From the IMG/VR virus record IMGVR_UViG_3300042894_000765, positions 1 through 28,156 of that record: DNA of 28,156 nucleotides; one strand, given 5' to 3'. This DNA is from a virus. The position numbers and the translations under genes are program-made. Under the pieces are notes generated by a model that had not been told where the DNA came from, did not search any database, and saw nothing but the letters and a program-made list of their open reading frames with translations. The stretch's first letter is position 1. Each line of letters opens with the position of its first letter. Shown here piece by piece: positions 2,258-16,354 of this stretch.

Positions 2258-3646
2258 ATGGCACTTAATTTTGGAGTTCTTGACCAAGGTGGCCCTTCAA
2301 ATTTCTTTGAGGGCTACTCTCAAGGCCAAGAGAAAATGCAGGCCAATGCAATGGCCCAGCAAAAAGCAGCGCAGGCCCAGCAAGAGTTTGGTATGCGCCA
2401 GCAGGAGTTTGCCGCTGGGCAGGCGGATAAAAAACGCGCGGCTGATGCGGCGATGGTCACACAACGAACACTGGCTTCCCGTGATGCGCTGCTCCGCGCT
2501 CGTACTCCAGACGAGGCCCGTGCAATTGTCCGGGCGCGACATAACGACCCGTATCTTGGACGGATTAGTCAACAGTTTGGCAGCGTAGAAGCAGACTTGG
2601 CTGAAGTTCCTGACGAGCCAACGGCTTTTCAGCAGTACAAAGAACGAGAGGCTATGGGCGCGGAAGCGTTCCTGAAGCAACAAGCCGGTTCTAGAGAGTT
2701 TGCCACTGCTATGGGTGGCGCTCAGGCTATGCCTCAAGCAGCGCCTACTAACGCTATGGCTCCTGTTGGGCCTGCTGCTCCAGCCGCGCCTGTTAACGCT
2801 ATGGCTGCACCGGCAGTGTCAGGCGAATTGCAAAACAAGTTAGACCAACGTAAACGATTGGCATTAATTGCCAATCAAGACCCTCGCGTTAAAGCCAATA
2901 TTGACATTCTAGATAAAGAGATTGCTCGGCTGTCGCCTGCGGCACCGACACCGCCAGCAAGTATTGCTGAATTTGAACGCGCAAAAAGAGACCCACAGTT
3001 CATGAGATTTTTGCAGGAGCGTGCTGCTGCTATTCGTCCCCCAGCAGCGCCTCGGCCTGAACCAGCGCCACGAACACAACAGATTACACTTTCTGATGGT
3101 AGCCTTGGAATTGTCAACATGGATACTGGGGTAATAACGTCTTCAACTTTAGCTGGCGCACCTGTTAAAGGCAGACCGTCTGCTACCGCAGAAAAAGCAG
3201 CGCTACAACGCAAACAGCTTAATTTAGACCTTGACCGTGCCATTATTGAACTTACAGATGCAACAAAAGACGGCGGTTTAATTGATAAATCAACCGGCAG
3301 TGGCGCGGGGCGACTTATAGACCTTGCTGCGGGTTTTGGTGGTAAAGCTACGTCAGGTGCAATTGCCATTGGTGAACTTCAGCCAATTGCGGACATGGCT
3401 CTAAAAATGGTGCCTAGATTTGAAGGCCCACAATCTAACGCTGATACAACGTCCTACAAGCAAGCGGCGGGTCAATTAGCTGACCCAACATTGCCTAGAG
3501 AAATTAGAAAAAAGGCAGGCAAAACTGTGTTGCGTTTAATGAAAGACCGCAAAGGCCAGTTTGCATCTACCGCAATGGAAGCGGAAGGCGTGTCGCCAGC
3601 GCCTGCTGCGGCAGGGGGTGTAATTGACTTTGGGAGCCTACGATAA
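2258..3646 (+). CDS. Putative second ejection protein (gp20 position)
   Basis: A 462-aa protein starting MALNFGVLDQGGPSNFFEGY, an N-terminus I recall from internal virion proteins of related phages. Residues 23-65 are rich in Gln, Ala and Lys and look helical. A proline/alanine linker (about 158-185, with three NAMA repeats) separates the N-terminal helical part from the rest. No catalytic motif is visible. It lies between the gp7-like protein and a 776-aa protein, occupying the place of P22 gp20. Sequence similarity to gp20 itself is not evident, so the function is inferred from order and composition. Its stop overlaps the next start in a TAATG. Confidence 0.5.
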   Translation: MALNFGVLDQGGPSNFFEGYSQGQEKMQANAMAQQKAAQAQQEFGMRQQEFAAGQADKKRAADAAMVTQRTLASRDALLRARTPDEARAIVRARHNDPYLGRISQQFGSVEADLAEVPDEPTAFQQYKEREAMGAEAFLKQQAGSREFATAMGGAQAMPQAAPTNAMAPVGPAAPAAPVNAMAAPAVSGELQNKLDQRKRLALIANQDPRVKANIDILDKEIARLSPAAPTPPASIAEFERAKRDPQFMRFLQERAAAIRPPAAPRPEPAPRTQQITLSDGSLGIVNMDTGVITSSTLAGAPVKGRPSATAEKAALQRKQLNLDLDRAIIELTDATKDGGLIDKSTGSGAGRLIDLAAGFGGKATSGAIAIGELQPIADMALKMVPRFEGPQSNADTTSYKQAAGQLADPTLPREIRKKAGKTVLRLMKDRKGQFASTAMEAEGVSPAPAAAGGVIDFGSLR

Positions 3647-14689: not shown

Positions 14690-15187
14690 ATGGCTTTCCT
14701 CGACGAAGAATTTACCCTCGACACTCTCCCCGTTGGCAACACCGGCAACTTTGAACCTCTGCCCGAGGGCTGGTACAACTCCACCATTACCGGCGCTGAG
14801 ATCAAGGCCACCAAGGCTGGTGACGGCAAGTACATTGCTGTCAAGTACACCATCACTGGGCCCAGCCATCAAGGCCGGGTGATCTTTGGCAACTTGAACA
14901 TAAAAAATGCTTCAACTAAGGCCGAGGAGATTGGACGCCAGCAGCTTGGCGAGATCATGCGAGCCATTGGCTTGGCAAAGGTGCAGGACACCGACCAACT
15001 GATCGGCGGCAACCTGGGCATCAAGTTGGTCGTCAAGACTGGTGAGTACGCAGGCAACGAGATCAAGGGCTACCGCGCTTTGGGTGGCGTGACACCGGCT
15101 GCGGTTGCGCCGTTCAAGCCTGTTGGGCCATCGGCTGCTGCTGGTATGCCTGCTGCTAAGTCTGCGCCACCTTGGGCTAAGAAGTAA
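14690..15187 (+). CDS. DUF669-type protein, candidate ssDNA-binding protein
   Basis: A 165-aa protein. The core (GNFEPLPEGWYNSTITGAEI, then DGKYIAVKYTITGPSHQGRV, then LVVKTGEYAGNEIKGY) has the strand pattern of the DUF669 phage family, which is thought to include OB-fold ssDNA-binding proteins. An acidic beginning (FLDEEFTLD) and a flexible Ala/Pro tail ending PPWAKK replace the usual acidic SSB tip. In this context it would coat single strands for the Sak4-like annealer and exonuclease. It follows the previous stop by two bases. Confidence 0.7.
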   Translation: MAFLDEEFTLDTLPVGNTGNFEPLPEGWYNSTITGAEIKATKAGDGKYIAVKYTITGPSHQGRVIFGNLNIKNASTKAEEIGRQQLGEIMRAIGLAKVQDTDQLIGGNLGIKLVVKTGEYAGNEIKGYRALGGVTPAAVAPFKPVGPSAAAGMPAAKSAPPWAKK

Positions 15188-15190
15188 GTT

Positions 15191-15272
15191 TTGGGGGGAA
15201 AGTTGCTGGGAGAGCTTAGTCAGTAAGCAGGTCACAGGTGCAAGTCCAGTCCCATGCAGCGAGTACCCCCAC
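15191..15272 (+). ncRNA. Candidate structured RNA with tRNA-like T-arm
   Basis: Directly after the DUF669 stop the + strand can fold. TGGGGG (15192-15197) pairs with CCCCCA (15266-15271). GTTGCTGGGA (15202-15211) pairs with TCCCA plus GCAGC (15250-15254, 15256-15260) with one bulged T. GCTTA (15214-15218) pairs with TAAGC (15224-15228). The remaining segment AGGTCACAGGTGCAAGTCC resembles a tRNA variable loop and T-arm with one mismatch, and also fits GGTGnnAnTCC of cobalamin aptamers. It is not a canonical tRNA: the anticodon arm is five bases short and extra bases precede the 3' acceptor strand. Function unknown. Confidence 0.35.
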
Positions 15273-15274
15273 CC

Positions 15275-15305
15275 AAAAAAAGACCCCGCTTGTGACGGCG
15301 GGGTC
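15275..15305 (-). terminator. Intrinsic terminator facing leftward inside a rightward operon
   Basis: GACCCCGC (15282-15289) and GCGGGGTC (15298-15305) form a perfect 8-bp GC-rich stem with an 8-base loop. On the minus strand it is followed by seven T (15281-15275), a textbook intrinsic terminator. On the plus strand no T-run follows. The loop shares TGTGACGG with the terminator near 18890. Confidence 0.7.
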
Positions 15306-15340: not shown

Positions 15341-16354
15341 ATGAGAATCCCTGAATCGGATATTACCATCACCAGCCTGATCGATCAAGCCCATGAAGCC
15401 CGGACTGAGAAGCCCCGCGCTCATATGGGTTGCTCTACGTTAGGCCATCATTGTGAACGCTGGCTTTGGCTATCGTTTCGCTGGGCGGTGGTTGAGAAGT
15501 TCCAAGGCAGGATCCTGAGACTGTTTAGGCGTGGATTCAATGAGGAGGCCACCATCATCAGTGACCTACGCGCCATTGGCATGAGCGTGTCAGGAACCCA
15601 ACGCCGGGTGAACTTTGGCAGTCATGTATCGGGCAGCCTGGACGGTATCGGCAAGGGTGTGCCTGGTGCGCCAAAGACTGAACACGTGCTGGAGTTCAAG
15701 ACCCATTCGCTCAAGAGCTTCAACGACCTTGAGAAGAATGGAGTGCAAAAGTCCAAGCCCCAGCATTACACCCAATGCCAAGTGTACATGCACGGCACCG
15801 ACCTGAAACGTGCCTTGTACGTTGCCGTCTGCAAGGATGACGACCGCATCTATACAGAGCGGCTGGAGTATGACCGCGACCATGCCATCAAGGCCATCGA
15901 CAAGGGCCAACGGCTGGCGCTGACTGACCGCCTGCCACCGCCGATAAGCACCGACCCGACATGGTTTGAGTGCAAGATGTGTGCAGGCCATGACTTCTGC
16001 CACGGAAGCAAAACCACTAAGCAGGTCAACTGCCGAACGTGCGCCCACATCACGCCGTTGTCAGATTCGACTTGGCACTGCGCTAAGTGGGACGCCATTG
16101 TGCCGCTGGATGCCCAACTTACAGGCTGCGAGAGCCACGTTATCCACCCTGACCTTGTGCCTTGGAAACGCCTAGAGGGGCCAAGCGACTGGGTTGCAGT
16201 CTATGAGATCAATGGACAAAGCATTGCCAATGGTGAACCAGACGAGGGCGTTTACGCCAGCAAGGAACTGTTAGCTAACACCGCCGCCTGCGTTGACGCC
16301 GACCCGCAGGTCATGGCGCTGCGGAAAGAATGGGATGGGAGGGTAGTGGGATGA
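15341..16354 (+). CDS. PD-(D/E)XK (Cas4/RecB-like) exonuclease with extra zinc-type Cys clusters
   Basis: A 337-aa nuclease candidate. The PD-(D/E)XK core shows GSLDGIG (Asp101) and VLEFKTHS (Glu118, Lys120), followed by QHYTQCQVYM, the usual helix after the active site. Cysteines at 31 and 38 (CSTLGHHC), 211, 214 and 220 (CKMCAGHDFC) resemble the iron-sulfur or zinc pattern of RecB/Cas4 nucleases. A second cluster, C231-C234-C247-C263, would make a separate zinc ribbon. It likely resects DNA ends to feed the Sak4-like annealer. The start is ATG 15341 after AGGAAC; the end overlaps the methyltransferase by ATGA. The core is by motif; the metal type is undecided. Confidence 0.75.
   Translation: MRIPESDITITSLIDQAHEARTEKPRAHMGCSTLGHHCERWLWLSFRWAVVEKFQGRILRLFRRGFNEEATIISDLRAIGMSVSGTQRRVNFGSHVSGSLDGIGKGVPGAPKTEHVLEFKTHSLKSFNDLEKNGVQKSKPQHYTQCQVYMHGTDLKRALYVAVCKDDDRIYTERLEYDRDHAIKAIDKGQRLALTDRLPPPISTDPTWFECKMCAGHDFCHGSKTTKQVNCRTCAHITPLSDSTWHCAKWDAIVPLDAQLTGCESHVIHPDLVPWKRLEGPSDWVAVYEINGQSIANGEPDEGVYASKELLANTAACVDADPQVMALRKEWDGRVVG

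Follow-up and report, generated by a model that had tools for sequence, protein, structure and literature searches.

PeSL cassettes of T4-type phages are intergenic stem-loops that are shuffled between phages and carry early promoters, and the loop-E or bulged-G motif, in which AGUA stands opposite GAA, is a recurrent RNA building block rather than a family. In phage T4, the repressor site of gene 32 is located in the leader of the message. This autoregulatory site serves as a translational repressor site on the gene's own mRNA (PMC535899). The STAXI RNA motif consists of a repeated pseudoknot with frequent UUCG loops and lies near genes for ssDNA-binding and other DNA-handling proteins; between RNA and ssDNA, its authors preferred RNA (Weinberg et al., 2010; PMC2864571). 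Structured RNA located 3' of one gene class, with a suggested effect on the gene in front of it, is exemplified by the L17 downstream element and by phage retroregulation (PMC2864571).

Here we describe a structured element at positions 15191-15272 of the window, i.e., the whole stretch of 28,156 nucleotides analyzed in this study (positions 1 to 28,156 of the IMG/VR virus record IMGVR_UViG_3300042894_000765). The element belongs, in diverged form, to a large family of phage RNAs, the loop-E platform, which is well supported and apparently undescribed. We found no description of it in Rfam 15 or in the papers searched; its absence from the papers is weak evidence, since few subscription papers were covered.

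The window element and its family

The gene directly upstream of the element (14690-15187, plus strand; Pfam DUF669, E=1.4e-11) encodes a ssDNA-binding/annealing-type protein of 165 aa, a close homologue of which matches the PHROG SSB families phrog_6015 and phrog_378. Behind its TAA stop codon (15185-15187), the original prediction had placed a closed multi-stem fold, and all of the parts it described are present exactly where it put them. These are a 6-bp outer stem (P1, 15192-15197/15266-15271), the 3' strand of which is followed by the common ACC flank, a 10-bp stem (P2, 15202-15211/15250-15260) and a 5-bp hairpin (15214-15218/15224-15228). P2 is formed by GTTGC and TGGGA on the 5' side and by TCCCA and GCAGC on the 3' side, where T15255 (U in the RNA) is bulged. 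P1 and P2 are separated by an internal loop of GAAA (15198-15201) and GAGTA (15261-15265), which is invariant in the alignment, its letters being required by the family searches themselves, and which we take to be a putative loop-E-like (bulged-G) loop. The variable tip (15212-15249) carries a D-arm-like hairpin (15214-15228) and a T-loop-like segment (15230-15247) with the predicted letters AGGTCACAGGTGCAAGTCC; the pairing of this T-arm-like part is weak, with about two G-C pairs and one pair past an A-A mismatch. The predicted fold energy of the whole element is -31.2 kcal/mol (z = -2.98), better than that of 200/200 dinucleotide shuffles.

The GAAA of the window element begins 10 nt past the DUF669 stop codon. 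A second hairpin follows directly 3' of the element, and the next gene (15341-16354), on the same strand as DUF669, encodes a PD-(D/E)XK/Cas4-like exonuclease, so called after its counterparts in annotated named relatives. We looked for a promoter-like site at the element and found none, nor is there an intrinsic terminator, i.e., a G+C-rich hairpin with a T run, on the plus strand; the sole one found reads on the minus strand (15305-15282). This minus-strand hairpin with seven T (window 15282-15305) resembles an intrinsic terminator for antisense transcription within the plus-strand operon and is kept in nearly all DUF669 relatives that lack the element.

As the original prediction had stated, the element is neither a full tRNA (ARAGORN, 0 genes in the window) nor a known riboswitch. 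Rfam searches of the window and its relatives at gathering and relaxed thresholds gave no significant match, to tRNA or any other family. Rfam ribozyme families did not match the element either, and a GcvB hit (E 0.87) lay below the threshold of that family and was taken as chance. The suggested echo of the cobalamin aptamer comes down to a short word in common; the Rfam cobalamin covariance model found nothing at E<=10 in the 301 bases searched. The proposed likeness to tRNA holds for the variable tip, with its D-arm-like and T-loop-like pieces, and fails for the conserved P1/loop-E base. Moreover, over a stretch of 32-38 nt there is 84-88% identity with a portion of Aeromonas phage sequences, one of them annotated as tRNA-Phe, and the tip may derive from a tRNA gene. 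For the family, we reject a decayed tRNA gene because its conserved part is the base, which is not tRNA, and the tips of most members do not resemble tRNA. Since an independent family model matches the window element (see below), a decayed tRNA, a mimic of tRNA, and a riboswitch, for instance of the cobalamin class, are all very improbable readings.

The family was gathered by searching viral contigs for the shared ends of the element, and all counts given here are among the matches listed. After removal of duplicates, it comprises at least about 270 distinct elements on at least 240 viral contigs. A further 53 stretches came from a third search, which asked for the stem and GAAA/GAGUA with other sequence beside them. 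All members share a covarying P1, the GAAA/GAGUA internal loop and a hypervariable tip, and most also have a second stem. Covariance model R1, built from the 61 members of alignment A3, which were chosen with P1 and from which the window was excluded, matches 15191-15272 over model positions 1-71 (32.1 bits, E=4.6e-7). This is its sole match in the window, and R1 also finds the other elements in DUF669 context, with E down to 5.5e-13. The window element thus joins the family by its R1 score, by a P1 that closes GAAA...GAGUA (15192-15201, 15261-15271) and by a distance to the stop codon of about 9-13 nt. The core of the main subfamily, which defines this subfamily and not the family, is GAAAGCGGAUGC on the 5' side and GCAGCGAGUA on the 3' side. 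In the window, the 3' side is exactly GCAGCGAGUA and the 5' side reads GAAAGUUGC, without the CGGA bulge of the main subfamily, so that the window element belongs with variants such as L409/L410, in which the bulge is absent and P2 runs uninterrupted.

The exact core occurs in eight genome-collection records, including Limnohabitans, Comamonas, Xylophilus, and Pelomonas. When R1 was run on 300 Burkholderiales genomes, only the Comamonas genome that we had started from matched, which suggests that the element is rare in bacterial chromosomes and mainly a phage feature. R1 had no match in nine regions of named phages that encode related SSBs; most of these regions contain other structures at this place. 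Short-query BLAST of the element in named phages returned only chance-level matches. A multi-copy dispersed repeat was not supported, as each record holds at most one exact copy (counted over the shorter tip range), tandem stacks aside.

Compensatory changes support the outer stem. Among 116 distinct listed elements fetched without a demand for P1, 103 (89%) form at least 4 contiguous bp of P1, compared with 24% for shuffled partners. These 116 elements have 37 different P1 arm pairs, and 54 of the 67 arms other than GGGG are fully complementary. Among the inserts of the DUF669 spacer, L016 has the compensated outer stem GGGCC/GGCCC. In A3, an alignment of members selected with P1, 95% of cells pair, compared with 37-63% for slid partners, and both sides have changed in 8 of 9 pairs; 0/500 shuffles reach any of these measures. 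The first P2 pair is G-U in 16 of 60 alignment rows and 21 of 36 variants. As G-U would be A-C on the other strand, this fits a sense-strand RNA rather than DNA or an antisense RNA. Conservation and covariation are thus both found in relatives, and together with the match of the independent covariance model they bear out the proposal that the recombination operon holds a compact structured RNA of the phage. Despite this conservation in the family, close relatives of the window often lack the whole element.

Position behind stop codons and neighboring genes

Counting same-strand upstream ORFs with 60 codons or more, we found that GAAA starts 9-20 nt, mostly 10-11 nt, past a stop codon in 170 of about 222 listed elements with enough flank; hence P1 usually begins 4-8 nt behind the stop. 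In most elements the distance is 9-13 nt. At control positions shifted by 200-500 nt, a distance of 8-14 nt to a stop was seen 1-5 times per ~220 elements, and on the opposite strand 9 times. Reading frames through the element are open in 77 and closed in 93 cases, which is about chance and gives no indication of stop-codon readthrough.

Clustering of the upstream ORFs of 233 listed elements showed that the gene in front of the element usually encodes a ssDNA-binding protein, drawn from several unrelated families. The largest are SSB (phrog_7364), a 317-aa family, an 83-aa family with SSB-like acidic PF tails, and DUF669, followed by a 49-aa Cys-rich family, a 213-aa family, Enc34_ssDNA-bd/Gp2.5-like proteins, Pam3_Gp34, and OB-fold SSB. 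A direct SSB profile match (PHROG/Pfam) exists for the families of 76 of the 233 upstream ORFs. The model of the 213-aa family has T4 gp32 and SSBs among its structural matches (Z 5.7 and lower), although an integrase-RDF fusion is the better match (Z 8.1), and the AlphaFold model of the 317-aa family is of low confidence, with a best structural match of Z 5.0 and several OB folds among the matches. A C-terminal xPF tail is found in 24% of the upstream proteins and in 2% of all ORFs of the same loci. The downstream genes are very diverse and fall into 107 clusters, which indicates that the element is associated, not exclusively, with the upstream gene. Some copies follow genes that we take to encode RecT or an exonuclease.

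Two further observations concern the upstream side. The 49-aa Cys-rich protein (L295 and 17 other loci) has a signal-like N terminus and no Pfam or PHROG match; its gene lies directly upstream of the element in 18 of 233 cases and downstream in 8. Five loci (L182, L192, L214, L223, L315) share a recurring upstream stretch, ACTGGAACCTGCG..GTC(GT)GTCTCCATACCAG, with a P1 of TCGG/TTGG and no stop codon at this place. Some of these and a few others run on into ..ACGCATGAGGATTG, perhaps representing another context or a second motif.

The position of P1 just past the stop codon would also suit a translational insulator or protein-binding site, i.e., a structure at the leading edge of the ribosome, or a loop-E bound by a protein, that controls downstream reinitiation. 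Feedback by the SSB would be one version, for which autogenous control by T4 gp32 provides a precedent (PMC535899). The downstream Shine-Dalgarno sequence and start codon often lie within ~20-26 nt of GAGUA. However, this spacing is loose, the downstream genes are very diverse, and no frame is kept open through the element. In addition, the upstream SSB families are unrelated, which makes it unlikely that one loop is recognized by all of them. We therefore regard this explanation as doubtful.

Tip exchange, stacking, and site gain and loss

The tips vary far more than the base. Among 236 listed main-subfamily elements there are 205 distinct tips, and at about ten sites different tips are found between identical flanks. 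Conversely, one tip, TGACCAGTTAGCTGAAATGCAAAGGCAGT, recurs in 12 contexts, where the preceding gene comes from several families and the P1 stem differs. We considered whether tips are matched to the SSB family, and rejected this since the same tip stands behind several families and one SSB family is followed by many tips. The tip of the window element is found only in the near relatives L007/L157, L158, and L159. The L341 tip was called as tRNA-Thr and the L024 tip is, judging from its sequence, a cloverleaf-like remnant. The D-arm-like and T-loop-like pieces of the window element are in keeping with such tips, but only 7 of 238 tips contain a strict T-loop-like motif. One tip family (L201, L222, L224, L235, L236, L273, L276) has a covarying hairpin stem beside a constant GGACGAAC and forms a small module of its own. 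Eleven tips are minimal, such as CCGAAAGG, and 4-nt loops occur, which means that the base can stand alone and that a payload is not obligatory. Elements also occur in tandem, separated by short linkers, with up to four in L294. There (2686-2993, minus strand), four elements with different tips and P1 stems stand behind one SSB-like gene.

This diversity brings in the main rival to a role in cis, namely a payload that acts in trans. The base would then be a nuclease-resistant handle and the tip a small functional RNA, highly expressed from the SSB transcript, that acts against a host factor, perhaps a defence system, as decoy, mimic, or inhibitor and is exchanged in the course of an arms race. 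The number of distinct tips, their swapping between identical flanks, the reuse of one tip behind unrelated genes with different P1, the tandem stacks, the tRNA-body tips of L341 and L024, and tip families in which a loop motif such as GGACGAAC is conserved all agree with such a cassette. The minimal tetraloop tips do not, and inner tips are only mildly stabler than shuffles (mean z -0.7), while the fixed spacing to the stop codon and the association with SSB genes point to a role in cis. On balance, we consider a payload in trans unlikely, if still worth weighing. In a related picture, the element would be a natural RNA display platform, in which a constant handle behind a needed early gene is loaded by recombination with modules, tRNA bodies included, that act on host factors and whose tips diversify in an arms race; this, too, appears rather unlikely.

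The DUF669-exonuclease spacer provides a view of gain and loss. Among 60 distinct spacers in IMG/VR, 8 contain an additional unit that immediately follows the stop codon, and most have only a hairpin of the GACCCCGC...GCGGGGTC type. In the closest relatives of the window, L002 and L003, which have an identical DUF669 protein and 95% nucleotide identity upstream, the whole inserted unit (15189-15273) is missing as one block. The BLAST alignment breaks off at 15188 and continues from 15274, and the relatives read TAAGC-AAAAAAA, a clean empty site at which we found no target duplication. The inserts share common ends, GGGGGGAAAGCGGATGCTG ... GTGCAGCGAGTACCCCC, of which the window has a variant 5' end, and differ strongly in their interiors. 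In other relatives, the same spacer hosts genes containing GIY-YIG, HNH, and NUMOD3 (L123/L069, L143/L144, L047/L048), which marks it as an insertion hot spot.

Gain and loss, tandem stacking, and tip exchange resemble mobility at the DNA level, so that the element could also be a folded ssDNA, serving as a replication, recombination, or mobility site. Its location in a recombination/replication module beside SSB genes, the usual presence of one exact copy per record, and the HNH and GIY-YIG genes in the same spacer fit this idea. It is opposed by the orientation of the element, which is mostly sense to the upstream gene at a fixed distance from the stop, by the many G-U pairs, and by the lack of a target duplication at the empty site. 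A DNA element is thus improbable.

A proposed role at the 3' end of SSB messages and comparison with known systems

Strong structure right behind the stop codon seems to be a recurrent feature of SSB genes, also where the loop-E platform is absent. In a small, hand-picked set of 13 SSB-family genes without the element from named records, in which some of the hairpins are terminator-like, the 45 nt past the stop have a median folding energy of -15.6 kcal/mol compared with -6.2 kcal/mol for neighboring genes (p=2.6e-4). Burkholderia phage Bm1 (L480:1876-1960) has a complete tRNA-Met with CCA 6 nt past the SSB stop and just before the DNA polymerase gene, and in DSL-LC04 an 8-bp hairpin lies six nt behind the SSB stop. 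The loop-E platform would then represent one elaborate form of such a structure.

We therefore infer, tentatively and at slightly less than even confidence, that the element is a 3'-flanking structure of the SSB gene, which acts as an intercistronic boundary, stabilizes or defines the end of the SSB message, and uncouples the downstream gene. On a polycistronic early mRNA, the base would fold as soon as the terminating ribosome allows and form a stable boundary that sets the SSB message apart from the gene behind it. Once the mRNA is cleaved, the base could shield, or determine, the 3' end of the SSB part; it could also uncouple downstream translation, such that SSB is made in excess of the downstream proteins. 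Because 4-nt loops occur, the tip would not be needed for the function of the base, and foreign RNA modules could be swapped into it by recombination, some of which may have gained functions of their own. The element is not essential, given that only 8 of 60 DUF669 spacers have it and most relatives do without. It also speaks against a 3'-flanking role that some copies stand behind other genes and that in the window a second hairpin follows directly. Moreover, a plain hairpin would suffice for stabilization, so that the invariant loop-E and the elaborate tips suggest a role more specific than stabilization.

If confirmed, the loop-E platform would be a widespread class of phage RNA that has gone unannotated and that accompanies one functional class of genes, whose proteins come from unrelated families, suggesting a shared need to shape the SSB mRNA right after the stop codon. 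It would also provide a natural scaffold in which very different RNA inserts are tolerated, and a case where the exchange of RNA modules between phages can be counted.

By context, STAXI is the closest described motif, since both are structured and lie near SSB or DNA-handling genes; STAXI is tandem-repeated, and tandem elements near SSB genes occur in relatives. STAXI differs in being built of pseudoknot repeats, whereas the platform consists of P1, the GAAA/GAGUA loop, and a variable tip, and the Rfam covariance model of STAXI matched neither the window nor 18 relatives. PeSLs resemble the platform as shuffled intergenic cassettes, but they bring early promoters, and the window element has no promoter-like site. 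tRNA is shared in part: some tips are tRNA bodies or D/T-arm pieces and the Bm1 tRNA sits at the same place, yet the P1/loop-E base is not tRNA. The loop-E/bulged-G motif has AGUA opposite GAA in common with the platform, where it is read from the sequence. The L17 downstream element and retroregulation offer the likeness of a 3' structure and a precedent for acting on the upstream gene; the L17 element belongs to another gene class, has another fold, and has not been described with exchangeable tips. Finally, the T4 gene 32 site is, like the platform, an RNA structure in a phage SSB mRNA, whereas the platform lies behind the stop codon.
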